53,308 bases of DNA, from NCBI GenBank assembly GCA_026398255.1, contig JAPLTG010000043.1, forward strand, positions 1 to 53,308. Reading direction: 5' to 3'. The notes below the pieces were generated by a model. That model saw only the letters and a program-made list of their open reading frames with translations, was not told the origin of the DNA and searched no databases. This DNA comes from Verrucomicrobiota bacterium. Its GTDB lineage: Bacteria; Verrucomicrobiota; Verrucomicrobiia; Chthoniobacterales; Terrimicrobiaceae. Position 1 is the stretch's first letter. Every line of letters starts with the position of its first letter. Made by a program: the position numbers and the translations under genes. Positions 3 through 45,317 of the stretch are shown piece by piece.

Positions 3-497
3 GAAAACCTCGGCGGCAAATTCACCATCCTCAGCACGGAGCTCGTTCGCGACCTCAAGAAGATCGGCAAATGGGATACCCGCATGCTCGAACAACTCAA
101 ATACTTCGAGGGCGAACTCACGAACATCGAGGAAATCCCTGACTCGATCCGCGAAAAACACCGCACGGTTTTTACGATCGACCACGAGTTTGTCATCGAT
201 GCCGCTGCGCGCCGGCAAAAGTGGATCGATCAGTCGCAATCGGTGAACCTCTTCATCGGCGAGCCCGACATGCGTGTCGTGAGCAAGATGTATCGCCGCG
301 CCTGGCACACCGGTCTCAAGACGACCTACTACCTCCGCACACTCGGGGCCTCGAGCATCGAAGGCCCGACCACGAATGTGAAAAAAGAACTCCGTGGCGT
401 CGTCGCCGGACCCAAGCCGGAATTCACTGCCGATCAAAAGATGGCCTGCTCCATCGAAGCCATGCGCAACGGCGGCGAGTGCGAAGCCTGCCAGTAA
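3..497 (+). CDS. nrdA: Ribonucleoside-diphosphate reductase, alpha subunit (3' end only)
   Basis: This is the C-terminal ~164 residues of a class I ribonucleotide reductase large subunit, which reduces ribonucleotides to deoxyribonucleotides in the cytosol; the gene starts before the window. Recognisable landmarks are the helix containing DMRVVSKMYRRAW, the LKTTYYLRTLGA segment that follows the active-site barrel, and a C-terminal tail ending GGECEACQ with the two swinging cysteines (C-x2-C) that relay electrons from thioredoxin or glutaredoxin. A strong hairpin lies 14 bp past the stop. It is an ordinary core gene and marks the left backbone beside the accessory region. The class I assignment is family knowledge applied to this tail; the small subunit is not in the window. 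Confidence 0.93.
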   Translation, partial: ENLGGKFTILSTELVRDLKKIGKWDTRMLEQLKYFEGELTNIEEIPDSIREKHRTVFTIDHEFVIDAAARRQKWIDQSQSVNLFIGEPDMRVVSKMYRRAWHTGLKTTYYLRTLGASSIEGPTTNVKKELRGVVAGPKPEFTADQKMACSIEAMRNGGECEACQ

Positions 498-3852: not shown

Positions 3853-3935
3853 GTGTAGGACTTGGAGAAACTTCCATAAAGCTGTTTAATTCTTAAAATA
3901 TAATAATTTGTATCTGAAATGCGTAATGGCTGTTT

Positions 3936-16986: not shown

Positions 16987-17280
16987 TCATTCAGCATTTT
17001 TCTGCGCTTCGAAATTTCCGAGAACTTCTCCAATGACAACGGTGTAATTGAGGTTTCCATGGTCGAGGTCCACATCGGGCAGGAAATCCTCATCCAGCGA
17101 GCCGAGCAGGGCTGGCACATCAGATTCTTTCCATCCCGCGTCTTTCAGCAAAATCACCGTCCCGGCCACAGTGCCATTAGCCAAATAGTGGAGATCAACA
17201 GCTGCAACATCCCGACCCTCACGCTGTGCCAGAAAGCGCTCGGATGAGGTCGTGCGGAGAGTTCGTTTCCAAGAAAGCAT
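16987..17280 (-). CDS. Conserved 97-residue protein (left copy)
   Basis: A small acidic protein starting [17 protein letters not shown] with a later [19 protein letters not shown]. It is nearly identical in sequence to the product of 28790-29083, differing mainly at the ends. In both places it lies immediately upstream of an SNF2 helicase. No known domain is recognised. Its strict pairing with unrelated restriction modules makes it a candidate regulator or adaptor of the helicase; that is inference. Fic lies 8 bp upstream here, and DUF4236 directly upstream in the other copy. Confidence 0.75.
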   Translation of the reverse strand: MLSWKRTLRTTSSERFLAQREGRDVAAVDLHYLANGTVAGTVILLKDAGWKESDVPALLGSLDEDFLPDVDLDHGNLNYTVVIGEVLGNFEAQKNAE

Positions 17281-17288
17281 AAAAGTTT

Positions 17289-18025
17289 TCAGTTTTCAGG
17301 TGTGAGTCGAGTTTTCCAAATCTCAACCAGCGGAGACCAGTTGGCGTGGTCGGCTGCTTCCAGGGCAGAGAAATATTTTTGCCTCGCAGTTTCAGATTCG
17401 GGAGCAAGCTCCAACTCGGGGAGGTCAAGACGTCGGAGAAGTTCAAGAAGGAATAGGCGAATCGTCCGGCCATTGAAGTCAGCGAATGGATGAATGGTCA
17501 AAAACCGCCCTTCAGCAAACGCTAGGAACTCCAAGGTGAGATCACCTATCCGAGAACTGGCCTCCTGCCACCGAGCGGCAAGATCAGCTCCATAGTCGCG
17601 CATGAGCACAGGCACCTGTGGTGGTTTGGGCGGCTCAAGGTTACCGACACGCACATCAATCGTTCGCCATTTTCCTGCCCAGTCGGGAACGATATCCACA
17701 GAAATGAGGCGATGAATCTCGGTGCAAAGATTTTCATCAAGGGGGTGGTTCGAGAAATCCCCACGATAGATGCGGGATTCAACGACGAGAACTTGCTCGG
17801 CCAGGAGTGGCGCTACCTCGGAGTAGGAAAGGATGCCCCGCGTTGTTTCAATAAAACGGGTGGCTCGATCCGGTCGAGTATCCCTTGAAGGAGGCTGATC
17901 TCCACTGGCTCTCTCTCGAAGGCCATGCTCTGGGCCACATCGCGAGGAATCGCCTTCCAGCGACGGAGAAGTTTCTCTTCGGCTGGAAGCTGCCTCCATC
18001 TCTCGATGTTTTCGATCCAAGTCAT
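17289..18025 (-). CDS. Fic-domain protein, frameshifted or overlapping antitoxin-toxin pair
   Basis: The C-terminal ~190 residues are a Fic domain with the catalytic loop HPFADFNGRTIR, the histidine loop that transfers AMP or a similar group to a hydroxyl. The natural-looking N-terminus (MTWIENIERWRQLPAEEKL, from 18025) is in a different frame and stops at 17813; the Fic frame upstream of there reads as non-protein. No ATG, GTG or TTG start is visible in the Fic frame after the overlap. So either a one-base indel near 17850 broke one gene, or a 70-residue upstream protein overlaps the toxin. The upstream frame holds SMAFERE, near the (S/T)xxxE(G/N) inhibitory motif of Fic antitoxins. The gene is absent from the duplicated cassette on the right. 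Confidence 0.7.
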
Positions 18026-18057
18026 CGGTCATAGGTTAGAGCGCGGAGAGCAAAGGT

Positions 18058-18306
18058 TCAAGCGGGGAAGAGCCATCGACTGACGGCGAGTGTGGCAGGG
18101 ATGGCAACTAGGAGAACAAGGCAACCAGCACCGGATTTGCGATAGCCGATACCAGTGCCGGGAATGCTGAAGCTGGTGTATTTGCGGCCTCGGGAGGTGG
18201 TGCCAACACGGAATCCACGGCCACCCACGGAATAGCCAACGCCAGACTTACTCAGATTCACTCGGAACGGTCCGAGGTTCACGGATTTTCGATAGTAGAA
18301 GCCCAT
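18058..18306 (-). CDS. DUF4236 protein (left copy)
   Basis: The 82-residue protein starts MGFYYRKSVNLGPFRVNL and has the DUF4236 glycine-rich core (SKSGVGYSVGGRGFRVG, then SFSIPGTGIGYR), followed by a hydrophobic C-terminal segment (CLVLLVAIPATLAVSRW) that probably spans or docks to the membrane. Function of the family is unknown. Its first ~70 residues are identical to those of 28548-28793, and the ~95 bp before it are also conserved in both copies. Confidence 0.88.
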   Translation of the reverse strand: MGFYYRKSVNLGPFRVNLSKSGVGYSVGGRGFRVGTTSRGRKYTSFSIPGTGIGYRKSGAGCLVLLVAIPATLAVSRWLFPA

Positions 18307-18401
18307 CAGATCTGAGGGAAAGTGGTGTGGAGGGAAGCATCGGGCATGGCGGCTAGTTCAGCTTTTTCGATGGCTGTGGGCAATTGGAAACCCAAAGAAT
18401 T

Positions 18402-18686
18402 TCACTCGTCATCTGCGCACAAAATCGGAGGCTTTGTCGCATAGGGGTTGTTTGGACTGATCGGGCTATAGGGGCTGCCGTATTGGCTGTAGGGATTGTT
18501 GATACTTGTCGGCGAATACGGACTGCCATACCTGCCGTAGGGGTTTGAGACGGAATCGGGATCGTAGGGATTCGCGCTGAGTCTTCCAAGATACTCGCCA
18601 TCGTCATCGCAAGACTGCGCGAAGGCGCTTGGGCATTGAATCGGCAAGGCAATGGCTGCCGCGAGAAGGATGAGTTTTGATTTCAT
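18402..18686 (-). CDS. Secreted NPY-repeat protein, short form
   Basis: The 94-residue product has a Sec signal peptide (MKSKLILLAAAIALPIQC..AFA, cleavage after AFAQ-like) and then short repeats built on NPYGRYGSPYSP and NNPYSQYGSPYSP, ending CADDE. It equals the 158-residue protein at 27976-28452 with about 64 residues missing between two internal copies of G-(E/Q)-YLGRLSANP, a deletion expected from recombination between those repeats. It is exported, so it does not obviously belong with cytoplasmic restriction enzymes. Its leader is A/C-rich (AACCAACC just before ATG). Function unknown. Confidence 0.82.
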   Translation of the reverse strand: MKSKLILLAAAIALPIQCPSAFAQSCDDDGEYLGRLSANPYDPDSVSNPYGRYGSPYSPTSINNPYSQYGSPYSPISPNNPYATKPPILCADDE

Positions 18687-18752
18687 GGTTGGTTATAGGT
18701 TTTAGATTTCGAGTTTTTGAGAGGGTATTTTTTTATCTGTCCGAGGAGGCGC

Positions 18753-19942: not shown

Positions 19943-19985
19943 TGCGCCCCCCGGGACTCGAACCCGGAACCAATTGATTAAGAGT
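19943..19985. repeat. attL: partial tRNA-Lys copy
   Basis: Starts TGCGCCCCCCGGGACTCGAA and ends GATTAAGAGT. It is identical over 43 bp to 45246-45288. It contains the acceptor 3' strand, T arm, variable loop and anticodon-arm 3' half, but the tRNA 5' half is absent, so it is not a functional tRNA. Confidence 0.92.
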
Positions 19986-20028: not shown

Positions 20029-21420
20029 ATGAACACAAAAAACAGAGGTAAAACCAAATTAACCAATGAAAAACATTCGCTTAATGCTGGGGCTGTATCC
20101 GGTCATAGCGAATCGAAGGGGCGCGGAAAAAGTGCAACGCAAGTGCAACTCAAGAAAGCCAGAGGCATTGGCAAGAACTCCGCGAACTATTGGATTACGC
20201 GCTTGGTAAAGAAGAAAAATTCCTTGGGAATTGAATCTCCCCATTGGTCAATCCAACTACAGAGCGGCGGCATGAGGCGTGGTTTTTCGACAGGAACGGG
20301 CAACAAGGAAGCCGCTGCGAAGGTTGCTGCCGGAATATACAATGACATTCTTGTGATGGGGTGGGATGCCGCCATTGCCAAGCACCGCCCTACGAATGAA
20401 CTCGAACAAGATCTTCCTGCACCCGTGGCTTCTGTGGGCGATTGGATCACTGCCGCACGGAGAGTTTCTGAGGCGAACGAATCCACCTTCACCTCCTACG
20501 CCCGCGCTCTACGAAAAATTGTTGCAGACATATTCGCCATGGATCGTTCTACAAAACGCTTTGGGCCGCGCAAGGGAGGGGCGGCGGATTACCGATCCAA
20601 GATCGACGCTACGAGTCTTGCTGTTCTGACCCTGCCTGCCGTGCAGAAGTGGCGCTTGGAATATGTGAAGCGGGCTAAGAACCCTGCAGAGGAACGCTCG
20701 CGCATGACCTCCTGCAACTCCACGATCCGGCAGGCGCGGAGCTTGTTTGCCGGGAAAATTCTCAAATTCTTGCCCGAACTTCGACTCCCCGATCCGATTC
20801 CTTTCCATGCGGTCGAGTTTTTTCCGCGCCAGTCCGCAAAATACTTCTCGCGGATCGACGCGAAGACCTTGTTGCAGGAGGCGCACCGGGAGCTTGCGAA
20901 GCGCGACTCTCCGGCATTCCTTGCCATGCTTCTCGCCTTGTCGGCGGGTCTGAGGAAGGGCGAGATTGACTCCCTGCAATGGCATCAGGTGGACTTCAGT
21001 CGCCAACTGATCCGTGTAGAATCGACCGATGCAGCGAGCCTCAAGACTGCGGACTCCCGCGATGAGGTGGCGATTGATGCGAATACGATTTCGCTTCTTC
21101 GGAGCTTTCACGCAAAAAAGACTGGGCCGTTCGTGATTGATGGAGAGGGCGCGGAAGGCGGGCCGAAGAAGTGGGGACAGAACTACCGGGCCGGGGCGGT
21201 CTTTGATCGTCTCACCGCTTGGCTCCGCAAGCACGGCGTGACCGCGAGGAAGCCTCTTCACGAGCTTCGCAAGGAACTTGGCGCGCTAGTTACAGCGGAG
21301 CACGGTATCTATGCTGCATCTCGGGTATTGAGGCATAGCAATGTTGCTACCACCGCCGCCCACTATTCGGATTTAAAAACACGGCCGGTAGTAAATGTGG
21401 GGGGATGGATTTTGGATTAA
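20029..21420 (+). CDS. int: Tyrosine recombinase / integrase
   Basis: The 463-residue protein is a phage-type integrase that exchanges strands at att sites. In the C-terminal half are the first arginine in LSAGLRKGEIDSLQW, the H-x2-R box in HELRKELGA, and RHSNVATTAAHYSDL carrying the second histidine and the nucleophilic tyrosine. The N-terminal ~130 residues are basic and look like the arm-binding domain, followed by a core-binding SAM-like domain. It starts 43 bp inside attL. Its coding region includes a 20-bp repeat (20131-20150) that also occurs 54 bp from attR and may be an arm site. It is probably responsible for the tRNA-Lys insertion. Confidence 0.93.
   Translation: MNTKNRGKTKLTNEKHSLNAGAVSGHSESKGRGKSATQVQLKKARGIGKNSANYWITRLVKKKNSLGIESPHWSIQLQSGGMRRGFSTGTGNKEAAAKVAAGIYNDILVMGWDAAIAKHRPTNELEQDLPAPVASVGDWITAARRVSEANESTFTSYARALRKIVADIFAMDRSTKRFGPRKGGAADYRSKIDATSLAVLTLPAVQKWRLEYVKRAKNPAEERSRMTSCNSTIRQARSLFAGKILKFLPELRLPDPIPFHAVEFFPRQSAKYFSRIDAKTLLQEAHRELAKRDSPAFLAMLLALSAGLRKGEIDSLQWHQVDFSRQLIRVESTDAASLKTADSRDEVAIDANTISLLRSFHAKKTGPFVIDGEGAEGGPKKWGQNYRAGAVFDRLTAWLRKHGVTARKPLHELRKELGALVTAEHGIYAASRVLRHSNVATTAAHYSDLKTRPVVNVGGWILD
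20131..20150 (+). repeat. Putative integrase arm-type site, left
   Basis: AGTGCAACGCAAGTGCAACT, itself two AGTGCAAC units 3 bp apart, lies 146 bp inside attL. The identical 20 bp occur at 45173-45192 near attR in the same orientation. Paired short repeats flanking the core sites are typical of arm-binding sites; the role is inference. Confidence 0.5.
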
Positions 21421-21643: not shown

Positions 21644-21838
21644 ATGAACCATACAAAACAACAATCAGCACAGTTGCTTTCCAGGCGGCATCTCGCCTCT
21701 CGGTGGGCAGTATCCAAAGAAACACTCAAACGCCGCGAGAGGGCTGGCAAATTACCATTCCTCAAGATCGGGAGAGACATCAGATATCGGCTTGCCGTTA
21801 TTGAACAGATCGAAGCTCAAGCAGAGGTAGCGCTATGA
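21644..21838 (+). CDS. AlpA-like / excisionase-type HTH protein
   Basis: The 64-residue protein has a MerR/AlpA-type winged helix: LLSRRHLASRWAVSKETLKRRE, then KLPFLKIGRDIRYRLAVIEQ. Such proteins activate or direct excision of integrated elements or regulate the downstream operon. Its stop overlaps the RepA-like start (ATGA), so they are co-translated. It follows the integrase by 223 bp containing repeated operator-like sites. The leader is A/C-rich (ACAAAACCAAAACC) with no Shine-Dalgarno. Confidence 0.85.
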   Translation: MNHTKQQSAQLLSRRHLASRWAVSKETLKRRERAGKLPFLKIGRDIRYRLAVIEQIEAQAEVAL

Positions 21839-23151
21839 TTAACGATAAAAATATCTCATCGGAGCAAATTGCCAGCGCTTTGAAGCAAGCGAAGAACCAA
21901 ATCAAAGTGGAGCAAAAGGCATGGGTAAAGAGCCAAGCTGCGGAAAGAGAAATTCAATCCGCACTTCAAACGCCACCACCTGAGGCCAGAAGCGTTCTGT
22001 CGTATAAGGCTGAGTTTCCTGATCCTGAGAAAACATTACTTGGTGATCGATGGCTATGCGTTGGCCAAGGAGCTCTCGCGGTCGGCCCTACCGGAATTGG
22101 CAAGTCAACCTCTTCAATGCAGCAGGATATCTGTTGGTCAATAGGCAGAGAGGCCTTTGGGATCAAACCGAGAAAGCCACTGCGTATTCTTGTCATTCAA
22201 GCTGAGAATGACAGTGGTGACCTCCACGAGATGGTCAAAGGAATCATGCTAGGCATGGGGCTATCAGAGGAGGAAGAAAGGCTATGCGGTCAAAATCTGT
22301 TCATAGCTTGTGAGCAGGAAAGAACGGGGCTGGGTTTCATTCATGGGGTGCTTCGCCCACTGATTGAAAAACATCTTCCAGAAATTGTTCGTATCGATCC
22401 GCTTATGGCTTTTGCTGGTTGTGATCTGACGCAATCTGCTGAAGCGGCCAAGTTCCTACGGCATGGAATCAACCCAATTCTCAAAAAGTTCAATTGTGCT
22501 GGAATCCTCGTTCACCATACGCCGAAGAACAATAACCGCGACACTTCCCAATACAGAGCCTCCGACTGGGCTTATGCAGGCGCTGGTAGCGCGGATATAA
22601 TAAATTGGGCGAGGGCGATGCTTGTCATCGACCCCTGCAAGGATGATGGAAAATTCTGCTTCATTGCCGCCAAACGAGGGAGCCGTGTTGGATGGAAAAA
22701 TGATTCGGGCGATGTTTTAATCAAGCGGTGGTTTAAGCACTCCTCAGGAAGCATCTGCTGGGTTGAAGCTGATTCAGAGAGTCCTCGCGCTGTTCACACC
22801 GAGGATAATCTCTACGACTTGATGCCTTTTGGGGTATGTATGCCCAAAGATGCATTTATAGAGACAGCTAAAGCGGTAGCCGGAATTCCCAAGTCTCGGG
22901 CAAATAGTCTATTATCAAAACTATTATTCAATGGAAGGCTTGTGGAAGATAAACTTCCAAGAAGCGGGACTAATCCTCAGAAGGTTATTAGACGTCCTGA
23001 AACGGCTCCGCTTCCAAACGCAATTGTGGATAAAACTCCCAAGAAGCAAACCAAGCTGGTTCGACGCAAAGCCATCGTTGTTGATGTTACTGCCAGAGAT
23101 AGCGAAGAAGCATCTTCCTATATCGAGCTTATTGAAGATAAAGCCGTTTAA
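21835..23151 (+). CDS. RepA-like AAA ATPase (replicative helicase type)
   Basis: The 438-residue protein has Walker A GPTGIGKS at residues 84-91, a strand ending ILVIQAEND (Walker B-like, with the acidic pair typical of RSF1010 RepA/RecA-fold proteins), IVRIDPLMAFAGCDL, and ILVHHTPKNN with the sensor histidine pattern. This group forms hexameric helicases that unwind plasmid or island DNA. The C-terminal ~130 residues are basic and may carry a winged helix. With the following primase it forms a replication module. Codon use is more AT-rich than the flanking defence genes. Confidence 0.85.
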   Translation: MINDKNISSEQIASALKQAKNQIKVEQKAWVKSQAAEREIQSALQTPPPEARSVLSYKAEFPDPEKTLLGDRWLCVGQGALAVGPTGIGKSTSSMQQDICWSIGREAFGIKPRKPLRILVIQAENDSGDLHEMVKGIMLGMGLSEEEERLCGQNLFIACEQERTGLGFIHGVLRPLIEKHLPEIVRIDPLMAFAGCDLTQSAEAAKFLRHGINPILKKFNCAGILVHHTPKNNNRDTSQYRASDWAYAGAGSADIINWARAMLVIDPCKDDGKFCFIAAKRGSRVGWKNDSGDVLIKRWFKHSSGSICWVEADSESPRAVHTEDNLYDLMPFGVCMPKDAFIETAKAVAGIPKSRANSLLSKLLFNGRLVEDKLPRSGTNPQKVIRRPETAPLPNAIVDKTPKKQTKLVRRKAIVVDVTARDSEEASSYIELIEDKAV

Positions 23152-23163
23152 AATGCCATGAGC

Positions 23164-23324
23164 AGAGACACCTGCGCGGAGACTTTTTCTCCCATTTTTC
23201 GAGACGGTCTTACGACCGGGCAATAGAGAAGAGACACAGACACTCCTCCCCCTTTAGGGGGAGTGGGTGGATGTCTGTCTCGCTCAGATCGGAAGTCTGT
23301 GGAAAAGCCCATGCGGGTGTCTCT
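23164..23324. other. Nested palindromic region between repA-like and primase genes (candidate origin)
   Basis: Four symmetric elements lie in ~160 bp. The outer arms are AGAGACACCTGCGC (23164) and GCGGGTGTCTCT (23313). A 5-bp hairpin CGGTC/GACCG is at 23205-23218. An inner pair is GAGACACAGACA (23231) and TGTCTGTCTC (23272). The innermost is a 7-bp stem CTCCCCC/GGGGGAG with a 4-base loop at 23246-23263. No T tract follows, so it is unlikely to be only a terminator. The position between a helicase and a primase suits an origin or primase start site. Confidence 0.5.
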
Positions 23325-23342
23325 CTCAAGCATCCCCAAATT

Positions 23343-24281
23343 ATGAATCCTGAAGACCTGTCACCTGAATCCTTGGAATTACCACCTTGTCCACCACCCG
23401 GCGGAGGCTGCCATCGCTGGATGTATCGACCCATACATCTCTTTGTAAGGGCCGGATTAGAAGACTCATTCATAGACGAATGGGTATCATATTGGCTTTC
23501 TCGCGCCCCTCAGCCGAGAGAGATTGAAAATACCATTCGCACCGTGAGATTGGAAGTCGATGGCTTAATGTTTCAAAGGCAAAGCTTTAATCGTAACATG
23601 CCACACGATGAGGCCCATATCACCTATTATACAAGAAACGGGCCGACGCAACTCGAAGATTTCATTTCTCGAAGCCCAATCAACCCGAGCGGTGTAAGTC
23701 CAGGAACGGCCCTACGCGCCCTTTTCCAGCAAAATGAGAGGACAGTCATCTTCACGCAGGAAAAAAGCCAAGGACAGCTTGTTTGGAGCCATAGCACGCC
23801 TGATGAGAAGTTAGACTCAATCGTCCGCACCAATACGGGCGGCGCTTGGTTTCTTTTGAATCCGGTGAGCGGTGAAATGCTGTGGGTCGATCGCTTGCAA
23901 AAACGAACACGACGCAGCGAGGAGAATACCACTTCTTTCCGTCACATCCTCATCGAGTCGGACTCGATGGAGATTGGCTTGTGGCTTACCATTCTTAAGC
24001 AGCTGCCGCTTCCCATCGTTTCAGTGACGCTCTCGGGAAACAAATCAGCCCATGCCATAATTCGCCTTGAGGCTACTTCAATGGATCAGTGGTTCACTGA
24101 AGCCAGAGCCGTAGCAGAAATGGTAATACCGCTTGGTGCTTGCCCTGGTGCGCTAACGGCAGTTCGCTTAACTCGACTTCCCGGCGTCATCCGCAGAGAC
24201 AATGGAAATAAGCAGAGACTGATCTGGCTAAACCCACATCCAACCCCAACATCTATAGCGCAGTTTCCAAAGAAACGATAG
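23343..24281 (+). CDS. AEP-type primase (RepB'-like) protein
   Basis: The 312-residue product (start MNPEDLSPESLE; an open frame extends 24 codons upstream through the palindromic region) has an N-terminal part with WMYRPIHLFVRAGLEDSF. Its C-terminal core resembles small bacterial archaeo-eukaryotic primases: HILIESDSMEIGLWL, ILKQLPLPIVSVTLSGNKSAHAI with the S-G-x-K-S-x-H motif, and LTRLPGVIR. It would make primers for the RepA-like helicase next door. Assignment rests on motif spacing seen by eye, not a profile. The helicase and primase pair points to autonomous replication of the excised element. Confidence 0.68.
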   Translation: MNPEDLSPESLELPPCPPPGGGCHRWMYRPIHLFVRAGLEDSFIDEWVSYWLSRAPQPREIENTIRTVRLEVDGLMFQRQSFNRNMPHDEAHITYYTRNGPTQLEDFISRSPINPSGVSPGTALRALFQQNERTVIFTQEKSQGQLVWSHSTPDEKLDSIVRTNTGGAWFLLNPVSGEMLWVDRLQKRTRRSEENTTSFRHILIESDSMEIGLWLTILKQLPLPIVSVTLSGNKSAHAIIRLEATSMDQWFTEARAVAEMVIPLGACPGALTAVRLTRLPGVIRRDNGNKQRLIWLNPHPTPTSIAQFPKKR

Positions 24282-25605: not shown

Positions 25606-26016
25606 ATGTTAAGAGACCAATGGAAATTCCGCTACACGGCCAGGCAACTTGCCGAAGCGGCTCAAACGAAAATCGAATTCCACAAAGGACGCCTCGAATT
25701 TTGGGAGGCGCGTCGCAAGGAGGTCATCGGCCAGATCAAAGCCGATGGCATTGAGGTGAACGAGAAATCCGTGCTGTTGCAATATGCCTCTCCGAAGATG
25801 CGGGATTTCCAAGAGGGTGGCGACATCATGATCCGCAACGACCTTAGAAAACGCCTTGCGGAATCCTACGAGAAGCTGGCCTACCACACCGGTCGCCGGG
25901 ACACCTTCGACGGCTGGCAGCAAGTCCTGGGAGCCAATCCGGACGACAAGATCGAGCTGGATATCGATGACTGGCTCTTTTTCTTCGGACGCGACACCAG
26001 CAAAGACGGACAATGA
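25606..26016 (+). CDS. Hypothetical 136-residue helical protein
   Basis: Starts MLRDQWKFRYTARQLAEAAQ and is mostly charged helix (KIEFHKGRLEFWEARRKEVI), with a C-terminal acidic end (DDKIELDIDDWLFFFGRD). It shows coiled-coil character and no catalytic motif. The stop overlaps the start of the deacetylase-like gene by 4 bp (ATGA), implying a functional pair. The leader is A/C-rich (AACCAGTAAAACCAAACCC). I do not recognise the family. Confidence 0.7.
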   Translation: MLRDQWKFRYTARQLAEAAQTKIEFHKGRLEFWEARRKEVIGQIKADGIEVNEKSVLLQYASPKMRDFQEGGDIMIRNDLRKRLAESYEKLAYHTGRRDTFDGWQQVLGANPDDKIELDIDDWLFFFGRDTSKDGQ

Positions 26017-26903
26017 TTCAGAACCATCCCATCCGCGCTGCCTTCAGTGAGTCCTATTTTTCCAACACCAGCACGCCCTCGATGCGGAAACTTACGCTGG
26101 TGGCGCGTCGGGCTGCGGAGGCGGGGTTTGTGGAGCTTGTCGAGCCGCAACCGGTAGGCCGAGCCGAACTGGATCAAATCCACGATCCGGCTTATGTCCA
26201 CAGCATCCTCAGCGGCGAAGGGCCGTTGAGCAAATGTGCCTTCGGCTATTGGAGCGAGGACTATCGAGATGGCGTCTTGGCGATCAATGGAGGCAATCTT
26301 CTTGCCGCCCGCTTGGCGCTAGAGGATGGCATCGCTGCGAATGTGGCCCAGGGCTTTCACCACGCCGCTCCGCCCAATGGCGGAGGCTACTGCACCTTCA
26401 ACGGACTCGCCCTCGTTGCGTCCTGCCATCCAGATATCGAGGTCTTCGTCCTCGATTGCGATGAACACGGGGGTGACGGAACGGCTGAATTTACGAAAAC
26501 TCTTCCCAATCTTTTCAACTTCTCGATCTGCGGCACTGGCATGGCCGCCTTCGAGGGTCCTCAATCCATTGTCCGCCGAGTGCCCCCGAGGGATGAAAAG
26601 CAAGCACACCAATACATGCAGGAAGCTCTGGACCTGATTGGCGAAAGACGACCGGGGCTTGTGATCTACCAAGCCGGCATGGACCCGCACCTCGACGACC
26701 CGCTCTCCCGCTCTAAAATGTCAGGAGAGTTTCTTGCAGCTCGCGATGAGTTCGTGATGAAAACCCTTTTGATCGAACTCGGCATTCCGTTCTTTTTTGT
26801 TCTGGCGGGCGGCTATCAAGAGCCCATGGAGAAAAAACTCGTCCCGCTCCATGTCCAGACCTTCGAGATCGCCTCCCGCATCAATCATCAGCGCCGGAAA
26901 TAA
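26013..26903 (+). CDS. Histone-deacetylase-superfamily enzyme
   Basis: The 296-residue protein has the arginase/deacetylase fold motifs: HDPAYVHSI near 57-65, tandem histidines H116-H117 in GFHHAAPPNGGGYCTFN, zinc ligands D150 and H152 in VLDCDEHGGDGT, third ligand D224 in YQAGMDPHLDDPL, and the catalytic tyrosine Y268 in LAGGY. All catalytic residues are present, so it is probably an active zinc amidohydrolase acting on an acetyl-lysine, acylpolyamine or similar amide. It is coupled to the 136-residue gene and followed by a lipoprotein. Its presence as cargo in a defence operon is unusual; the substrate is unknown. Confidence 0.88.
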   Translation: MIQNHPIRAAFSESYFSNTSTPSMRKLTLVARRAAEAGFVELVEPQPVGRAELDQIHDPAYVHSILSGEGPLSKCAFGYWSEDYRDGVLAINGGNLLAARLALEDGIAANVAQGFHHAAPPNGGGYCTFNGLALVASCHPDIEVFVLDCDEHGGDGTAEFTKTLPNLFNFSICGTGMAAFEGPQSIVRRVPPRDEKQAHQYMQEALDLIGERRPGLVIYQAGMDPHLDDPLSRSKMSGEFLAARDEFVMKTLLIELGIPFFFVLAGGYQEPMEKKLVPLHVQTFEIASRINHQRRK

Positions 26904-27891: not shown

Positions 27892-27975
27892 TATCCCATG
27901 GGAAACGCTCTCTCCGCTCCCAAAAGCGCACATCTCCTTTTCCAACCTCGAAAAGCCAACCAACCACACCAAATC

Positions 27976-28452
27976 ATGAAATCAAAACTCATCCTTCTCG
28001 CGGCAGCCATTACCTTGCCGATTCAATGCCCAAGCGCGTTCGCGCAGTCATGCGACGATGATGGCGAGTATTTGGGAAGACTCAGCGCGAATCCGTTTCT
28101 CACCGATTCCACGGCCAACAAATTCGGTCCATTCGGTAATCCCTATGCGAGCGACAGCATCGAGAATCCTTACGGGCCATACGGGAATCCTTACTCGGCA
28201 ACCAGCGTGTCGAACCCATACAGCACGGACGCGCCAAAAATCATCGCCGCCGATGGCCAGTATCTCGGTCGCCTGAGCGCGAATCCCTACGATCCCGATT
28301 CCGTCTCAAACCCCTATGGCAGGTATGGAAGTCCGTATTCGCCGACAAGCATCAACAATCCCTACAGCCAATACGGAAGCCCCTACAGCCCGATCAGTCC
28401 AAAGAATCCCTATGCGACAAAGCCTCCGATTTTGTGCGCAGATGACGAGTAA
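27976..28452 (+). CDS. Secreted NPY-repeat protein, long form
   Basis: The 158-residue protein has a signal peptide identical in layout to the left copy and repeats of the NPYG-x-YGNPYS and GSPYSP type, with two internal YLGRLSANP segments (after ~33 and ~97 residues). The left copy lacks the section between them. Start is MKSKLILL at 27976; the open frame upstream is A/C-rich leader. No enzymatic motif. Repeats of this style occur in exported proteins of many bacteria, with unknown function. Confidence 0.85.
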   Translation: MKSKLILLAAAITLPIQCPSAFAQSCDDDGEYLGRLSANPFLTDSTANKFGPFGNPYASDSIENPYGPYGNPYSATSVSNPYSTDAPKIIAADGQYLGRLSANPYDPDSVSNPYGRYGSPYSPTSINNPYSQYGSPYSPISPKNPYATKPPILCADDE

Positions 28453-28547
28453 AATTGTTTGGGTTTCAAATTGCCCACAGCCATCGAAAAAGCTGAACTA
28501 ACCGTTGTGCCTGCTGTTTCCTTCCACGCCACTTTTCCTCAGATCTG

Positions 28548-28793
28548 ATGGGCTTCTACTACCGAAAATCTGTGAACCTCGGCCCGTTCCGAGTGAATCT
28601 GAGTAAGTCTGGCGTTGGCTATTCAGTAGGTGGTCGTGGATTTCGTGTTGGCACCACCTCGCGAGGTCGCAAATACACCAGTTTCAGCATCCCCGGCACA
28701 GGTATCGGCTATCGCAAATCCGGTGCTGGTTGCCTTGTGCTCCTGGCAGGCATCCCCGCTGCTTTGGCCCTTTCACGCCTTCTTACATCATGA
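28548..28793 (+). CDS. DUF4236 protein (right copy)
   Basis: The 81-residue protein is identical to the left copy through the glycine-rich core and differs only in the C-terminal hydrophobic tail (LLAGIPAALALSRLL). The stop overlaps the start of the 97-residue homologue (ATGA), whereas in the left arm a Fic gene lies between these two. This shows either gain of Fic on the left or its loss on the right. Confidence 0.9.
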   Translation: MGFYYRKSVNLGPFRVNLSKSGVGYSVGGRGFRVGTTSRGRKYTSFSIPGTGIGYRKSGAGCLVLLAGIPAALALSRLLTS

Positions 28794-29083
28794 ATCTTTC
28801 TTGGAAACGCACACTCCGCACGGCCTCATCCGAGCGCTTTCTCGCAGAGCGCGAGGGCAAGGATGTTGCCGCAGTCGATCTCCACTACCTCGCCAGTGGC
28901 ACCGTTGCTGGAACCGTGATTTTGCTTAAGGATGCGGGATGGAAGGAATCCGATGTGCCTGCACTTCTCGGTTCGTTGGACGAGGATTTCCTGCCTGATG
29001 TGGACCTCGATCACGGGAATCTCAACTACACCGTGGTAATCGGAGAGGTGCTTGGGAACTACGAGGCGGAGAAATCAAAATGA
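28790..29083 (+). CDS. Conserved 97-residue protein (right copy)
   Basis: Starts [18 protein letters not shown] and matches the left copy over nearly its whole length ([19 protein letters not shown] shared). The stop overlaps the helicase start by 4 bp. The overlap chain DUF4236, this gene, helicase suggests stoichiometric production. Function unknown; constant association with an SNF2 helicase is the only clue. Confidence 0.78.
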
Positions 29084-32000
29084 AACTTTCATTCATCCAA
29101 GCGGGCATGAGTCTTGTTGGCGTTGAGCCGACGCAGATTGTTTCGGTGATTGCTGCTGTGAAGATTTCTGACGCGGCACTCCAGATTGTTTACCGTTTGC
29201 CTGATGGATCAATAAAAGAGCGCCTTCTTGCGGATGCCGATTGCGAATCGATTTCGGAGGCTGTTGCTGCGCATCCGTGGCGCTTTGATGGGGACGGGGA
29301 AGCCTTCAAGTTGGCTGTGGAGGCAAAGCGTATTGATCTCGCGTTCCTTTTCGATCCGATGATGGCCGTTCACACATCGAATGTTGACCCACTGCCTCAC
29401 CAGATTACGGCGGTTTATGAATCGATGCTGCCTCGCCAGCCCCTGCGCTTCGTCCTTGCCGACGATCCCGGCGCAGGCAAGACGATCATGGCGGGCCTTT
29501 ACATTCGCGAGCTCATCATGAGGGCCGACGCCAGACGGATTCTTGTGGTAGCGCCTGGTAGCCTTGTCGAGCAATGGCGCGACGAGCTGTATGAAAAGTT
29601 CGGTCTGCAGTTCCATGTCTTTTCCAACGCACTGGAAGCTGCTTCCCCGAGTGGAAATGCTTTCGATGACCATGATCACCTGATTGTTCGCCTTGATCAG
29701 ATGGCTCGTAACGAGGAGTTGCAGGAAAAACTCCTCTCCACCAGTTGGGATCTTGTTGTCTTTGACGAGGCACACAAACTCGCCGCGCATTTCTACGGAT
29801 CGAAGGTTGAGAAAACCGGCCGTTTTCAATTTGCGGAAAAAATGGGAGCCCGCACTCGCCACCTCCTCCTCATGTCTGCCACGCCACACAATGGCAAGGA
29901 GGAGGATTTCCAGTTGTTCCTCTCGCTTCTCGACTCAGACCGCTTTTACGGAAAATTCCGCGATGGCGTTCACAAAGTCGATGCCTCCGACCTCATGCGC
30001 CGCATGGTTAAGGAAGAGCTTCTCAAGTTCGACGGCACTCCGCTTTTTCCCGAGCGCCGCGCCTATACTCTCAACTATACGCTTTCGGATATTGAAGCCG
30101 CGCTCTATGAGGCTGTGACCTCTTATGTGAAGGAGGAAATGGGCAAAGCTGAGGCACTGGAAGGTTCCCGCAAAGGTTCGGTAGGGTTTGCTCTCACTGC
30201 TCTTCAGCGCCGCTTGGCATCAAGCCCGGAGGCGATTTTTCAATCTCTTCGCCGCCGTAAAGAACGCTTGGAGCGCAAGCTTCGTGAAGAAAACATCATG
30301 GCCCGTGGCCGCGAGGCTGCAAAATCGGCTATTCCAGATGACGACGACGATCTCACTGCCGAGGAGCAGGAGGAACTCGAAGAGGAACTCATCGACGACG
30401 CCACGACTGCGCAGACCAAGGCTGAGCTGGAAGCCGAGATTCTCATTCTCAAAAAACTGGAGCAACAAGCAGGTGGCGTTGTCGCATCCGGCTTGGATCG
30501 AAAGTGGGATGAACTCTCCAAGATTCTCCAAAACGACTCCCGCATGCGGGACGCAGGCGGCAGGCTCCGCAAGCTCATCATCTTCACTGAGCACCGGGAT
30601 ACTCTGAACTATCTGGAACAAAAGATGGGCGGTGTGCTTGGCACCCCAGGCGCGATCACCACCATCCATGGCGGCACCCAGCGCGACGAGCGCCGCAAGC
30701 GGCAGGCTCTCTTCCGTTCCGATCCCGAGGTTCGCATCCTTATTGCCACGGATGCCGCTGGCGAAGGTGTGAACCTTCAAAACGCGAACCTCATGGTGAA
30801 CTACGACCTCCCATGGAATCCGAATCGCTTGGAGCAGCGCTTCGGCCGCATTCATCGCATCGGCCAGCAGGAGGTTTGCCACTTGTGGAATCTCGTCGCC
30901 AAGGAAACCCGAGAGGGCGAGGTCTACCACCGACTCCTAACCAAGTTGGAAACGATCAGCACGGCTTTCAAGGGGCGCGTTTTCGACATCCTTGGCGAGG
31001 TCTTTGAGGAGAAAAGCCTCAAGCAACTCCTCCTCGACGCCATCATTTACAACGACCGCCCTGATATCCGCGAGCGGCTGAATCAACGCATCGATGCCGC
31101 TTTCGACGCCGATCACCTCAAGTCCCTCTTGAATAGGACGGCCTTGGCCCAAGAGACCATGAATCCTGAACGCCTCTTTGCCGTGAAGGAGCAGATGGAG
31201 CAGGTCGAGGCTCGCAGGCTTCAGCCATTTTTCGTTCGTTCTTTTTTCACCAAAGCCTTCGACGACCTTGGGGGCTCTTTGCTCCGTCGTGAAAGCGGGC
31301 GCTTCGAGATTACCCATGTGCCCGCCCTCATTCGTGAGCGCGACCGTATCATCTCAGGACGCAACCGTCGGGAACTCGCTCCGGTATTGAAGCGCTACGA
31401 GCGCGTCTGCTTCACGAAGGACGCCGTGCGCCCACTGGAACAGGCAGACGCACCATTTGCCCAGCTCCTTCATCCCGGACACCCGCTCATGCTTGCGGTC
31501 ACCGATATTGTTTTGGAGCGCCATACAAATCTCCTGCGGCAAGGCACGGTGTTGATCGACCCTGCCGATTCTGGAGACGAGCCCTCTCTGCTCTTTCTCA
31601 TCACGCATGAGATCAAAGGTGGCGATGGCATCGTGCTCTCGAAGCGCCTGCAATTCGTCCGAGTCACTCCCGATGGCCTCGCCCACTTTGCCGGGTGGGC
31701 ACCCCATCTCGATCTGGAGCCGCTTGATTCAATCGATCTGCATTTCATCCAGCCCATCCTTTCCGAGCCGTGGATATCGTCTGGCCAGGAGCAACGGGCA
31801 CTGGCCCTCGCCGCATCCACACTTGTTCCCGAGCACTACAAGGAAGTCGCCGAGCGCCGCATCGCCCATGTGGACAAAACCCTCACCGCTGTCCATGAGC
31901 GCCTCACCAAAGAGATCGCCTTCTGGTCGGATCGCTGGTTGAAGCTGAAAGATGATTTGGAAGCGGGCAAAGATGTTCGCCTGAATCTCGACAATGCCCA

Positions 32001-32571
32001 GCGCACCATCAACGACCTCGAAGGCCGTTTGGAGTCCCGCAAAAAAGAACTCCAATCCATGCGCCATGTTTCCAACGGCACTCCGATTGTTCTTGGTGGT
32101 GCTCTCATTGTGCCGAGCGGGCTGCTCCGCAAGATGCGCGGTGAGTCGCAAGCCCCCGATGCATTCTGCGCCGATGCGGCAGCCCGCAGTCGCATCGAAC
32201 AGCTCGCCATGGAGGCCGTGCGCCGATCCGAAGAGGCCCGAGGCTGCAGAGTCGTCGATGTCTCCGCGCAGAAATGCGGCTGGGATATCACCTCCTACCT
32301 TCCTGCGCTGGACGGTAAACAACCCCTCGCACGGCACATCGAGGTGAAAGGCCGGGCAAAGGGAGCCGACACCATCACTGTGACCCGCAACGAAATCCTC
32401 TACGCCCTCAACCAAGCCGACAAATTCCACCTCGCCATCGTGCTGGTGGATGAAAACGAGCAAATAGACGGCCCCCACTTCGTGGCCAATCCCTTTGATT
32501 CCGAGCCGGGCTGGGGCGTTTCTTCGATCAACTACAACCTCGGCGACCTTCTTGCCCGTGCGACCCTATGA
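29080..32571 (+). CDS. SNF2 helicase with C-terminal DUF3883 domain
   Basis: The 1163-residue protein has Walker A DDPGAGKT (128-135), DEAH in VVFDEAHKL near 229, SATP in [11 protein letters not shown], a long charged coiled insert (residues ~400-460), and motif [13 protein letters not shown]. The C-terminal ~80 residues ([20 protein letters not shown]) match DUF3883, a predicted PD-(D/E)xK-like module. It resembles the SNF2/DUF3883 helicases of DISARM-type and DUF1156/DUF499 defence loci and probably drives DNA translocation for the methylase and ATPase downstream. Its start overlaps the 97-residue gene. Confidence 0.9.
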
Positions 32572-32666
32572 TTTCCTACAAACCGAAATATAAACAAAAA
32601 ATCTGTTTATGTTTGATTGACGAGAGGGCTTCTTGACCTGAAAATTCAGAAATAACCTTCCTTTTG

Positions 32667-33953
32667 ATGTTATCTTCTTTCTTCATTCAAAACTTCCGCT
32701 CGATTCTGGAACTCCGCTTGGATTTCACCTACGGGGAGGGCAAGGCGCCGAATGGCTATCTGGATCAAGAAACCATGCCGTTTCTGGATGCTCCTCAAAA
32801 AAAGCGCCTCGTGCCCTGCACGGCCTTTTTCGGTGCCAATGCATCGGGCAAAACCAATGTCTTCTTGGCTTTCGGTGCCCTGAATCGCCTCGTGCGGGAG
32901 GGCGGACCGCTGGCCGACATTTTCGAGCCGAATTTGATCAACCCCAAGTTCTCCTCATCGACATTCGCTGTCGAGTTTCTCGTTGGCGAGGATTGCTACG
33001 AATACTCGATCACCCTCGATGCAAACGAGATTCTTGAGGAGTCCCTTCGGAAAAACACGAAGCCGCTTTTTCAAATCCAGTCCCTGAAAGCCGAGTTCTC
33101 GCGGCAAATCCTCTCCGCCACCTACTCCCAGGAAAAGCTTTCGGACATCCTGCGCGTCGAGTGCTCCGACGGCGAGGGCCGCCAGACCAAGCCCTTCCTC
33201 CACCGGATCGGGCTTGGCTACTCCGGGCTGCACTCCGATACGAAGACCGCCTTTGCCTACCTCGTCAACCAGATCAGGTTTTTTACAAACACCATCTCCT
33301 TTCCCCTCCCGTTTTCCGTGAAAGTCCTTGCATCCGCTCTCGGTGGGGATGAGAAAGCTGCCTTAGCGGAAATCACCGATGTCGTTCGGCGGTTGGACAT
33401 CGACATTTCCTCCATTGATTTCGTGCAAAGGGAACTCGCCCCTCACGAGGACGCTCCGCATGGGATTACCATGCTCGACCATAGCACCGGAACCAAACAC
33501 GCCGTTCAGATCATCTCCACGCATCAGGATGTCGCTGGCAACCCCACTCTCTTCGACTTCCTTAAGCACGAGTCCGCAGGCACTCAGCGGCTTGCCGGGC
33601 TGGTCGGCTTGATTCTCTTCGCGCTCAAGACCGGCTCTGTCCTGCTCGTGGACGAGCTGGAGTGCTCCCTGCACCCCTTGCTCATGCGCGAGATCGTGAT
33701 GCTCTTCAAAAAACGCTCCCACAATCCCAAGGGAGCCCAGCTCATTTTCACGACCCACAACACAGACATCCTCGACGATTCCATCCTGCGCCTATCCGAG
33801 ATCGCCCTCGTGCGTAAAACCTCCGCCAATGGCACTCTCGTGCGCCGCTTGGTCGATGCCAAACGCGAGGGCGAGGACATCCGCAATGTCACCAACTTCC
33901 GCAAACAATACCTCGCCGGATTTTATGCTGGCATCCCGCACCCCGCTATCTGA
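32667..33953 (+). CDS. RloA-like AAA (SMC/OLD-type) ATPase
   Basis: The 428-residue protein has Walker A GANASGKT (56-63), the ABC-type signature region near STGTKHAVQI, Walker B VLLVDELECSLHP near 328, and a D-loop/H-loop THNTDILDD, the layout of AAA_15/21 ATPases of the RloA and AriA (PARIS) kind. I take the ATG at 32667 rather than a TTG one codon upstream. The stop overlaps the next ATG (TGATG). With the Toprim-like partner this is a two-gene phage-sensing unit inserted between the helicase and the methylase. Confidence 0.87.
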   Translation: MLSSFFIQNFRSILELRLDFTYGEGKAPNGYLDQETMPFLDAPQKKRLVPCTAFFGANASGKTNVFLAFGALNRLVREGGPLADIFEPNLINPKFSSSTFAVEFLVGEDCYEYSITLDANEILEESLRKNTKPLFQIQSLKAEFSRQILSATYSQEKLSDILRVECSDGEGRQTKPFLHRIGLGYSGLHSDTKTAFAYLVNQIRFFTNTISFPLPFSVKVLASALGGDEKAALAEITDVVRRLDIDISSIDFVQRELAPHEDAPHGITMLDHSTGTKHAVQIISTHQDVAGNPTLFDFLKHESAGTQRLAGLVGLILFALKTGSVLLVDELECSLHPLLMREIVMLFKKRSHNPKGAQLIFTTHNTDILDDSILRLSEIALVRKTSANGTLVRRLVDAKREGEDIRNVTNFRKQYLAGFYAGIPHPAI

Positions 33954-34615
33954 TGCCCATGCCCTGCACACGCCATTTGATCATTTGCGAAGGAGAGTCC
34001 GAGCGGGCCTACCTCCAGCGTTTGCAGGCGTTTTTCGATCAACAGCCCCTGCCCAGCGGCAACTTCGAGCCGCCCCTCCGGATATTCGCCCCGCCAAACG
34101 CCGTCGCTCAATCCGGCAAATTTTCTGCTCTCAAAAGGTGCTACAGCGATGTCCGCAGAGAGAACAAAAAAGTCACCATCCGCATCTGGGCCGACTTCGA
34201 CCTCTACCTCCGCAACGACCACGATTGCTCCACCCACTACCGGAGCAAGCCCGCCACCCTGCCCGACTTCCTTTTTTCCTTTCACAATTTTGAGGACTTC
34301 CTCGCCCTACACCTCGCAGACGAACCGTTTGACCGATGGCTTGAGTTTGGCCGGAGGGGACATTTCGAGACCCCATTCCATTCGCCCGATTACATGCGGG
34401 AGTTTGAAACCATTCTCCCCGGCTACCGCAAAGCGGGGCTGCCACCAGACTTCATCACTTGGCAATCCCTCGCTAACCTCAAACGCCGCCTGACACACCA
34501 ACCCATCCCCCGCTTGCACGATCTCGGCAGTATCGACAAGTTCGCGGATTTTCTCATCGCGGAAATCGAGCGAGCCTACCCAGACCGCACCGAATTTCAT
34601 CCTTCAACCTTATGA
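33953..34615 (+). CDS. RloB-like Toprim-family protein
   Basis: The 220-residue protein starts [20 protein letters not shown], where ICEGESE supplies the conserved Toprim glutamate; [14 protein letters not shown] carries the D-x-D pair, and [11 protein letters not shown] follows. This is the RloB / DUF4435-like layout found beside RloA-type ATPases. In related pairs the Toprim protein is the effector nuclease held by the ATPase. It overlaps both neighbours, so the cassette is translationally coupled. Distinguishing RloAB from PARIS needs a profile search. Confidence 0.78.
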
Positions 34616-37527
34616 CTTCATCCTTTCCCATCAAATCCCCCCGCAAACTCATCGAAGTCGCGCTCCCGCTGGATGCGATCAATGTGGCGTGTGCCTACGA
34701 GAAGATGCCGGGCATCGGAGCGCATCCTCGCGGCATTCATTTGTGGTGGGCTCGTCGTCCGCTGGCGGCAGCAAGGGCAATTCTATTTGCGCAGCTGGTC
34801 AACGATCCCGGCTACCAGCAGGGCGGCGGGTTTAAATACGGGATGAACAAGAAGGATGCGGCAACGGAGCGCGCCAGACTCTTTAAAATCATCGAAGACC
34901 TCGTGAAATGGGAGAACAGCACCAACGAGGAAGTGCTGGATCGTGCCCGTGCTGAGATTCGCCGCTCATGGCGAGAAGTGTGCGAACTCAACAAGGATCA
35001 CCCGCAGGCCGCCGAGTTGTTCAATCCCGACAAGCTACCGGCGTTCCACGACCCCTTCGCAGGTGGCGGGGCCATTCCCCTTGAAGCACAACGCCTCGGT
35101 TTGGAATCCTACGCCTCTGACCTCAACCCCGTGGCCGTTCTAATCAACAAGGCCATGATCGAGATTCCGCCAAAGTTCGCCGGACGCGCCCCGGTGGGAG
35201 CCGATCCAGAAATAAGAAAGGGGAGTAAACTCGCACTCACGAGGGCTTGGCCGAGCGCAACGGGTCTTGCAGAAGACGTTCGCCGCTACGGAGCGTGGAT
35301 GCGGGCAGAAGCCCATAGGCGGATTGGGCACCTTTACCCAGATGTGGAAATAACCACTGAGATGGCGAAGGAACGACCGGACCTCAAGCCGCTGGTTGGA
35401 AAGAAAGTCGCCGTTATAGCATGGCTGTGGGCACGAACGATCAAGAGTCCAAACCCAGCTTTTTCTCACGTAGAAGTCCCTCTCGCCTCAAACTTTATTC
35501 TTGCGAATAAAGAAGGCAAGGAAGCCTTCGTGCAACCCGTTATTGATGGCGATAAATTTCACTTCGCGGTGAAGTTAGGCACGCCAACCCTTGATGCAGC
35601 AGCAGGAACAAAGGCAAGCGGCGCAAATTTCAGGTGTCTTATTTCGGGCGCACCAATTGCTGCGGAATACATCAGGAAGGAAGCTCAGAATGGGCGTATG
35701 GGGCAGCGCCTCATGGCCATCGTCGCCGAAGGAATACGAGGTCGGATTTACCTTACGCCTGATCAAGAAAGCGAAAACGTCGCCCGTTCAGCAATACCCG
35801 ATTGGAAACCAGATATTGACTTCTTTCAGCAGGCCCTGGGATTCCGGGTTGGCAATTATGGCATGTCGAAATGGTCTGACCTTTTCACCCCGCGCCAATT
35901 GGTGTCATTAACTACGCTTAGTGATATCGTTGGCGAGGCGCGCGAGCGTATTAGGCAAGATGCTGTTTCATACGGACTCCCTGACGACGGCAACGCCCTC
36001 GACGCTGGTGGCACTGGGGCAATCGCATACGCAGAAGCCGTAAGCGTATATCTTGCTTTTGCTGTTGATCGCTGCGCGGACTTTTCCAATTCAGTGACGC
36101 GGTGGGTGCCAGGGAATCAAAAGGTCATGAATCTATTTGGGAAACAAACGGTATCAATGACTTGGGATTATCCTGAAGCAGCCATACTTGCAAATACAGT
36201 AGGCGGGTTCGGTCCCGCATCGGAATACATCGCCGATTGCATTGAGAAACTGTCGCCATCTGCCAGTGGTTTTTCGACACAGGCAGACGCGCAGACTCAA
36301 GTGGTGTCGCGGCACAAGATGGTTTCAACCGACCCTCCTTACTATGACAACATCGGCTACGCTGATTTGTCCGACTTCTTCTACATTTGGTTGCGCCGCT
36401 CGTTGCGTTCAGTCTTCCCATCCACGCTGGCTACTATGACGGTGCCGAAAAATGAAGAGCTTGTGGCGACGCCGATCCGTCACGGCTCCAAAAATGATGC
36501 CGAACTCTTTTTCTTGGACGGGATGACGCAAGTCATTCAAAACCTATCGGATAAGGCCCACCCAGAGGGGCCTATCACAATTTATTACGCCTTCAAGCAG
36601 TCGCAAACGAACGATGCGGCGGATACGTCCTCGACAGGATGGGAAACATTTCTGAGCGCAGTGTTAAAAGGCGGTTTCTCTATTGTTGGGACTTGGCCGC
36701 TACGTAGTGAACAAGAGTTCCGAATGCGTGGAATGGGCGCAAACGCCCTCGCCTCCAGCATCGTTCTCGTCTGCCGCAAACGCCCCACTGACGCTCCCTC
36801 CATTTCCCGCCGCGAGTTCATCCGCGAATTGAACGGCGTGCTGCCCGAGGCGCTCGACGAGATGACCAAAGGTTCCGGCGACGAACGTTCGCCCGTGGCC
36901 CCGGTAGACCTTTCGCAGGCCATCATCGGGCCGGGTATGGCGGTCTTTTCCAAATACGCCGCCGTGCTGGAGGCCGACGGCTCGCCCATGAGCGTGCGCA
37001 CCGCCCTCCAGCTCATCAACCGCTTCCTCGCCGAGGACGACTTCGACGCCGACACCCAGTTCTGCCTGCATTGGTTCGAGCAACACGGCTGGACGGAAGG
37101 GGCATTTGGTGAAGCCCTCGTGCTGGCCCAGTCCAAAGGCACCAGCCCGGACGCCATGAAGGAAGCCGGGGTGCTGCAAAGCGGCAGCGGCAAAGTGCGC
37201 CTGCTCAAGTGGGCCGAGTATCCCACCGATTGGGACCCCCGCACCGACAAGCGAACACCCGTGTGGGAAGCCCTGCACCACCTCATCCGCGCCCACAAGC
37301 AAGGCGGCGATACCAGCGCCGGACCACTCCTCGCAGCCCTCAGCGGCAAAGCAGAAGCCGTGCGCCAACTCGCCTACCGCCTCTACACCCTCTGCGAACG
37401 CCAAGGCCGCGCCGAAGACGCCCGCGCCTACAACGAACTCATCACCAGCTGGACGGGGATCGAGGGTGCGGCCTCTTCATCCAATAAAAAAACTGATGCT
37501 CAAGGAGAACTCGGTTTTGGGAACTGA
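34612..37527 (+). CDS. DUF1156-containing adenine-specific DNA methylase
   Basis: The 971-residue protein begins with the DUF1156 signature ([23 protein letters not shown].. and [14 protein letters not shown], 43-56). It has SAM-binding DPFAGGG (147-153) with SDLNP (169-173), and the catalytic DPPYYDN (574-580) followed by [16 protein letters not shown]. Such methylases modify host DNA in multi-gene defence systems with a DUF499 ATPase and an SNF2 helicase, both present here. A stretch around 35200-36700 has somewhat different codon use from the flanks, hinting at recombination within the gene. Start overlaps the RloB-like stop. Confidence 0.9.
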
Positions 37528-37534
37528 CTCCACC

Positions 37535-37927: not shown

Positions 37928-37939
37928 CGTAAAAATTAT

Positions 37940-44911: not shown

Positions 44912-45317
<406 letters not shown>

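Follow-up and report, generated by a model that had tools for sequence, protein, structure and literature searches.

A nested hairpin behind repA as a candidate replication origin in an integrative element of Verrucomicrobiota

What is a dense set of palindromes doing between a helicase gene and a primase gene? The question is raised by positions 23164-23324 of a 53,308-nt stretch of verrucomicrobial DNA (the window, which is contig C12 of a 2.6-Mb genome). A sequence-only reading took the palindromes for a candidate origin or primase start site, lying as they do near genes for a RepA-like helicase and an AEP primase. Both gene calls, covariation within the stem and the recurrence of the hairpin in relatives support this candidate. 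We consider it probable, with good but not full confidence, that the palindromic region is the oriV of a 25-kb element, at which RepA would bind iterons and a hairpin or cruciform would serve for priming.

The integrative element and its replication proteins

The palindromes lie in an integrative element of 25.3 kb, the ends of which are an exact 43-bp repeat of the 3' part of tRNA-Lys. The left copy (attL, 19943-19985) matches the right copy (attR, 45246-45288) exactly, and the latter lies within an intact tRNA-Lys(CTT) gene at 45245-45317. From its left end, the element encodes on the + strand a tyrosine integrase (20029-21420; Pfam Phage_integrase E 2.3e-11, PHROG integrase), an excisionase-like small HTH protein (21644-21838; PHROG excisionase E 7.4e-6, HTH_17 under the curated cut-off) and a RepA-type replicative helicase (21835-23151), followed by the palindromic stretch and an AEP primase gene (23343-24281). 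The ATG at 23343 is favored as the primase start over 23271 because the latter would fall within the hairpin. No relaxase or terminase was recognized among the scanned ORFs of the element, a scan that took in part of the small ORFs, and the four small ORFs that follow gave no Pfam match. Followed along the element, GC skew does not turn clearly at the hairpin, a point against an origin there.

The rest of the element carries cargo. Positions 29080-40765 include HmaA, HmaB and HmaC at near full-length PADLOC match (the Hma defence system), with AbiL-like proteins between the Hma genes, and a histone-deacetylase-family protein is encoded at 26013-26903 (Pfam Hist_deacetyl E 2.5e-28). An inverted duplication relates ~17000-18700, in the chromosomal flank outside attL, to 27970-29080 in the cargo; its blastn pieces (494 nt at 92%, 279 nt at 82% and 127 nt at 93%) suggest cargo exchange between the element and an adjacent defence-like island.

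The helicase call is borne out by a Pfam AAA_25 match (E 8.5e-18) and by a structural model (pLDDT 85) for which RSF1010 RepA supplies each of the four best PDB matches, the top one at E 4e-12 (Foldseek). Past the helicase core, residues 323-386 run helix-strand-helix-helix-strand-strand, the order of a winged helix, as read from the secondary structure of the whole model; a C-terminal winged-helix domain is thus predicted. The primase model (pLDDT 79) likewise confirms its call, with best matches to the AEP protein PrimPol (6zp9; Z 14.7, rmsd 3.1, 171 aligned) and to RSF1010 RepB' (3h25/3h20), of which 3h25, solved with initiator DNA, scores Z 14.0 (rmsd 3.3, 168 aligned). PHROG assigns it as 'DNA primase' (E 4.5e-20), and its invariant residues across 17 homologues include ExD and SGxxSxH, which agree with AEP motifs. 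Primase homologues occur at 25 of the 61 other loci described below, either adjoining repA or fused to it. At a few loci, a CHC2/Toprim-like neighbor replaces or accompanies the AEP primase, and there it is possible that a DnaG-like primase has been swapped in or added while the hairpin stays. Similarity to CHC2/Toprim is weak (below cut-off) in the proteins concerned beside repA (L009:305-1381, L045:13378-14322 and L050:8337-9071).

The nested hairpin and its recurrence behind repA

Positions 23152-23343 fold into one nested hairpin by prediction. Folded as RNA, the + strand reaches -89.4 kcal/mol (z -6.55) and the - strand z -4.32, while a fold with DNA parameters, of a sequence one base shorter, gives z -4.72; in each case 0 of 200 shuffles were as good. 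The palindrome parts named by the sequence-only reading are all present, some in a form that differs from its description. The outer arms, AGAGACAC (23164-23171) and GTGTCTCT (23317-23324), match without error for 8 nt and pair at 92% when extended to 12 nt (23164-23175 on the + strand with 23313-23324 on the - strand). The inner pair GAGACACAGACA/TGTCTGTCTC (23231-23242 and 23272-23281, within arms at 23230-23242 on the + strand and 23272-23284 on the - strand) is also there, but pairs only if a 2-nt bulge is allowed. Instead of the 7 bp first read, the CCCCC/GGGGG stem has 8, with CTCCCCCT at 23246-23253 and AGGGGGAG at 23256-23263; as CTCCCCCT-TT-AGGGGGAG (23246-23263) it forms the apical hairpin, with a CCT..AGG apex of a kind enriched in homologous hairpins. 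The layout is indeed nested, but the small hairpin CGGTC-TTAC-GACCG (23205-23218), which with the GAGAC site before it spans 23201-23218 (+ strand), is not concentric: its place is next to the inner hairpin, in the 5' half.

A GAGAC core is repeated through the structure. It occurs at 23165 in the outer 5' arm, at 23179 (23179-23183, + strand), at 23201 and at 23231 in the inner 5' arm, and is inverted at 23277 in the inner 3' arm and at 23319 in the outer 3' arm. These six GAGAC/GTCTC occurrences in 192 nt compare with ~0.3 expected from the 84 in the whole window (Poisson 8e-7, for a motif picked post hoc). The repeats of the window are short (8-12 nt) and dispersed, unlike the tandem 20-bp iterons that typify RSF1010/IncQ; the load of exact 8-mer repeats is unexceptional, as 24 of 207 control windows are equally high.

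To what extent is the window alone in this? At E <= 1e-20, a RepA homologue turned up in 33 of the 384 genomes searched from the class; at 1e-40, the figures were 15 of 213 for the order and 20 of 387 for the phylum, with the window's own genome included in each count. A tblastn search of RepA against plasmids and phages gave no match at 1e-8, a single-protein scan of viral contigs gave none, and a Verrucomicrobiaceae MAG holds a RepA-related fragment (64% over 94 residues). The palindromic region itself has no DNA match in phage and plasmid records. Hairpins were then scored by a plain score of >=24, free of folding energies, with a start -10 to 200 nt after the repA stop. A strong hairpin follows the stop in 25 of 40 loci, against 1.3 expected, given that the other 623,180 nt of those loci hold 95 such hairpins; some of the 40 share a genome or genus, hence not all are independent. 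The centers of 18 of the 25 lie at +65 to +93 nt. The window's own hairpin, with its apex ~+103 nt from the repA stop, falls under the strict threshold (22 with symmetric scoring) because of its bulges.

Loci fetched later behave similarly, 10 of 20 passing the same score. Four more of these (L091, L092, L094 and L102) have a clear sub-threshold hairpin by eye, and that of L101 is just upstream (-29..23). From IMG/VR viral contigs, 80 loci less 8 short and 5 duplicate ones left 67 distinct loci, of which 33 pass with a wider window of -40..200 (2.25 expected), many of them from one near-identical family. Left out were L074 (too short), L093 (no stop in the locus) and the duplicates L089, L104, L105, L107 and L108, and L103 repeats L079. 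By folding, z <= -4 was reached behind 20 of 38 repA genes, compared with 10 of 200 other ORFs sampled from 519, some of these controls being hairpins of the same element further downstream. No hairpin at threshold stands in the test window at 15 of the 40 genome loci and 34 of the 67 viral loci; hairpins are displaced in L096 (+322), L106 (+232) and L066 (+290), and none was seen in L054, L060 and L090. Large hairpins thus recur in this position throughout the phylum as well as in viral contigs, which makes the given window part of a broad group. Searches of openly licensed papers turned up no account of such hairpins behind RepA/AAA_25 genes.

The hairpin was proposed to lie between helicase and primase genes, and this is so in the window, but in relatives the primase gene may be downstream, upstream or fused, and the hairpin is behind repA in all these arrangements. 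It is thus tied to the helicase gene and not to the helicase-primase gap. In viral contig L113, genes for the small and large terminase subunits (3527-5541) begin right after the hairpin, and in L048 and L052 an integrase-like gene is seen by eye further on past it. As the genes that follow differ, repA is the gene that the hairpin accompanies, as opposed to any gene for packaging, a primase or an integrase, and the arrangement in L113 indicates that the replication module serves both phages and islands without recognized packaging genes.

The stem sequences of homologous hairpins differ almost completely. With symmetric scoring, a hairpin is found in 49 of 61 loci, with 1119 Watson-Crick pairs, 28 G.T, 30 A.C and 106 other mismatches. 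A preference for G.T would be expected if the structure were RNA or were required in just one strand; at 28 G.T to 30 A.C, with 12 loci leaning each way (binomial p 0.90), there is no RNA-like wobble bias. Stem covariation in relatives, the absence of which was to count against the sequence-only reading, is present in a close family of 17 near relatives from viral contigs. Of the 11 pairs in their apical helix 3 vary, all three changed on both sides (A-T/T-A, G-C/A-T and C-G/G-C) and none broken, and over 21 pairs 99.7% of cells are paired, with 3 of 21 changed on both sides. The covariation score of this family, 0.071, was reached by 0 of 500 shuffles and slid controls stayed at <=0.011, although the number of changed pairs alone was equalled in 11 of 500 shuffles. 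L067 and L081, from one genome and gap-free within the stem, show 3 compensated pairs and 1 broken pair, with no one-sided change. Pair alignments of less close families total 226 same, 21 compensated, 14 one-sided, 49 broken and 41 gap; as a good deal of this resembles alignment shift, we rely only on L067/L081 and the close family. Covariation alone is no proof of function, since template-switch mutation could also make such pairs; the apex and the preferred distance from repA carry more weight as signs of function.

The CCT..AGG apex is found in 19 of 41 genome hairpins behind repA versus 6 of 185 elsewhere, and in 36 of 43 viral hairpins behind repA versus 1 of 114 elsewhere; the motif was written after both sets had been viewed, and the p-values are inflated by kinship, most in the viral set with its 17 near copies. 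In many members direct and inverted repeats fill the region, such as, by eye, GAGACTCTGGC in L051, GACACTTTCACG in L052 and GAACTCGTC in L058, and CCGAACAA is repeated in the hairpin region of L092. Behind repA, 13 of 40 loci have a repeat coverage that ranks among the top 2% of locus windows. GAGAC is the dominant core in the window's own RepA branch and is commoner where RepA aligns with the window's RepA to residue >=385, that is, through the C-terminal domain (20 versus 39 loci, p 3.4e-5), with zero GAGAC in 5 of those 20 (L044, L054, L081, L083 and L091). Among four later close homologues, L084 (6) and L086 (5) fit this tracking, L085 (2) fits weakly and L083 (0) does not.

The candidate origin and its alternatives

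A candidate origin would be the most economical reading of these data. At the level of sequence, its base consists of the nested hairpin, a fixed place behind repA, pairing that is kept and has no wobble bias, shared iterons, and the identity of the helicase and primase. We infer the origin role, the binding of iterons by RepA, the primer start sites and the priming of both strands. In the mechanism we propose, the element would first excise and replicate afterwards. RepA, a hexameric helicase of the RSF1010 type, would bind the direct and inverted GAGAC-core iterons, probably through its C-terminal winged-helix domain, and would melt or extrude the nested palindrome. A hairpin or loop bared on each strand could then be the site at which the AEP primase of the element assembles and primes, and replication would begin on both strands, as at the pRN1 stem-loop origin and the RSF1010 ssi hairpins. 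One symmetric nested hairpin could serve both strands.

The repeats could instead form a double-stranded DNA binding array with another job, as a RepA autorepression operator or a partition/centromere-like or incompatibility site, the palindrome being nothing but paired protein sites. We judge this unlikely. Iterons running both ways and the lack of wobble bias do fit double-stranded binding, and Rep-bound iterons are often regulatory too, but the arms continue well past a single site, up to a looped C-run/G-run apex that is found again and again although the flanks change. Furthermore, the site is behind repA and not in the repA promoter, and a scan of 22900-23500 for promoters of sigma-70 types found none (0.5 expected).

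A packaging (cos/pac) or transfer (oriT) site is suggested by L113, where the hairpin directly precedes both terminase genes, as pac or cos sites commonly do. This reading is nonetheless quite improbable, as the hairpin remains behind repA where a primase or other genes come next, and relaxase and terminase genes went unrecognized among the scanned ORFs of the element. Slightly less credible still is a structured RNA, be it a terminator, attenuator or leader of the downstream gene. The hairpin lies within what looks like an operon, and the + strand folds very stably as RNA, more so than the other strand. However, an RNA element is rejected by the missing G.U preference over the 49 hairpins, the region has no Rfam match, and the downstream genes differ from locus to locus (primase, terminase or, further on, integrase-like). 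A terminator is also rejected: a T-tract stands behind just 1 of the 41 hairpins from genomes and 6 of the 43 from viral contigs, none follows the main hairpin of the window, and the sole terminator-like match has a 5-bp stem and is within chance.

A functionless palindrome, made by MITE-type insertion or perfected by template switching, which can restore the symmetry of both arms and so mimic covariation, would fit the variation of sequence between loci but is barely credible given the preferred distance from the repA stop and the common apex across the phylum and viral contigs, and a repeated MITE is rejected because neither the own genome nor 15 congeners hold a second copy, save short weak matches. 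A protelomerase telomere was rejected by reasoning, as the arms are imperfect and bulged and the element is integrated.

If the origin reading is true, a hairpin behind repA becomes a finder for the origins of otherwise unannotated elements, and the many natural iteron-helicase pairs offer material for testing how replication proteins recognize origins. As the element of the window carries a full Hma defence system, such origins may also help to spread defence islands. More tentatively, and with somewhat less than even confidence, we envisage a widespread undescribed class of origins: a cruciform with a conserved CCT..AGG apex, the stem of which consists of iterons particular to each element and evolving together with a winged helix of its RecA-type helicase. 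AEP or DnaG-like primases could then be loaded on both strands. For phages, satellites and defence-carrying islands of Verrucomicrobiota-like hosts, the identity of the iterons might serve as a code of incompatibility.

Comparison with known origins

The closest parallel in shape is the Sulfolobus plasmid pRN1, in which a ~100-bp stem-loop lies 54 bp behind the primase-helicase gene. Its sequence varies while its shape is kept, it is reported to be necessary and, together with the replication operon, sufficient, and replication is restored when the stem-loop is moved; a pRN1-family stem-loop origin is also found in phage BIP-1 (PMC4234260). As the pRN1 authors state, direct proof of the origin is wanting there too (PMC4234260). 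Like pRN1, the present system has a hairpin behind a replication gene, shape kept over sequence, and an AEP primase, a helicase and a winged helix, the last predicted here. Unlike pRN1, where a single protein joins AEP, SF3 helicase and winged helix, the window has a RecA-type RepA/AAA_25 helicase and a separate primase (separate or fused in relatives). Whereas pRN1 is without iterons, many members here have clear iterons and a recurrent CCT..AGG apex. If the origin reading is true, the idea of an origin set by shape and not by sequence would apply to RSF1010-type RepA/AEP-primase modules as well as to SF3-helicase replicons, and its reach would be a whole bacterial phylum and its phages.

The oriV of RSF1010 (IncQ) is served by RepA, RepB' and RepC, with a primase that starts at the ssiA and ssiB hairpins (PMC4434180, PMC4234260). 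The likeness extends to the folds of RepA helicase and RepB' primase, as fold matches only and with no sequence-level membership, and to the presence of repeats and hairpins. RSF1010 is a plasmid with two 40-nt ssi sites, in contrast to one large nested hairpin in an integrated element; no RepC was recognized among the ORFs scanned here, and the reader of the iterons is probably fused to RepA.

Two integrated systems complete the comparison. The oriV of SGI1 is that of an integrative element and has iterons immediately downstream of rep (PMC7433901), an arrangement shared by the present element. SGI1 differs in its RepA_C initiator, 17-bp direct-repeat iterons, DnaA box and AT-rich parts, and no large hairpin is described in the available part of that account (PMC7433901). 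PrimPol-PV1 elements, which are integrated, often at tRNA genes, carry AEP primases and RepA-family helicases (PMC5862659), the same combination as in our tRNA-sited element; the available part of their account describes proteins, and 'hairpin' occurs 0 times in its text. The present case combines traits of pRN1, RSF1010 and SGI1, and agrees with none of these three on every tested feature.
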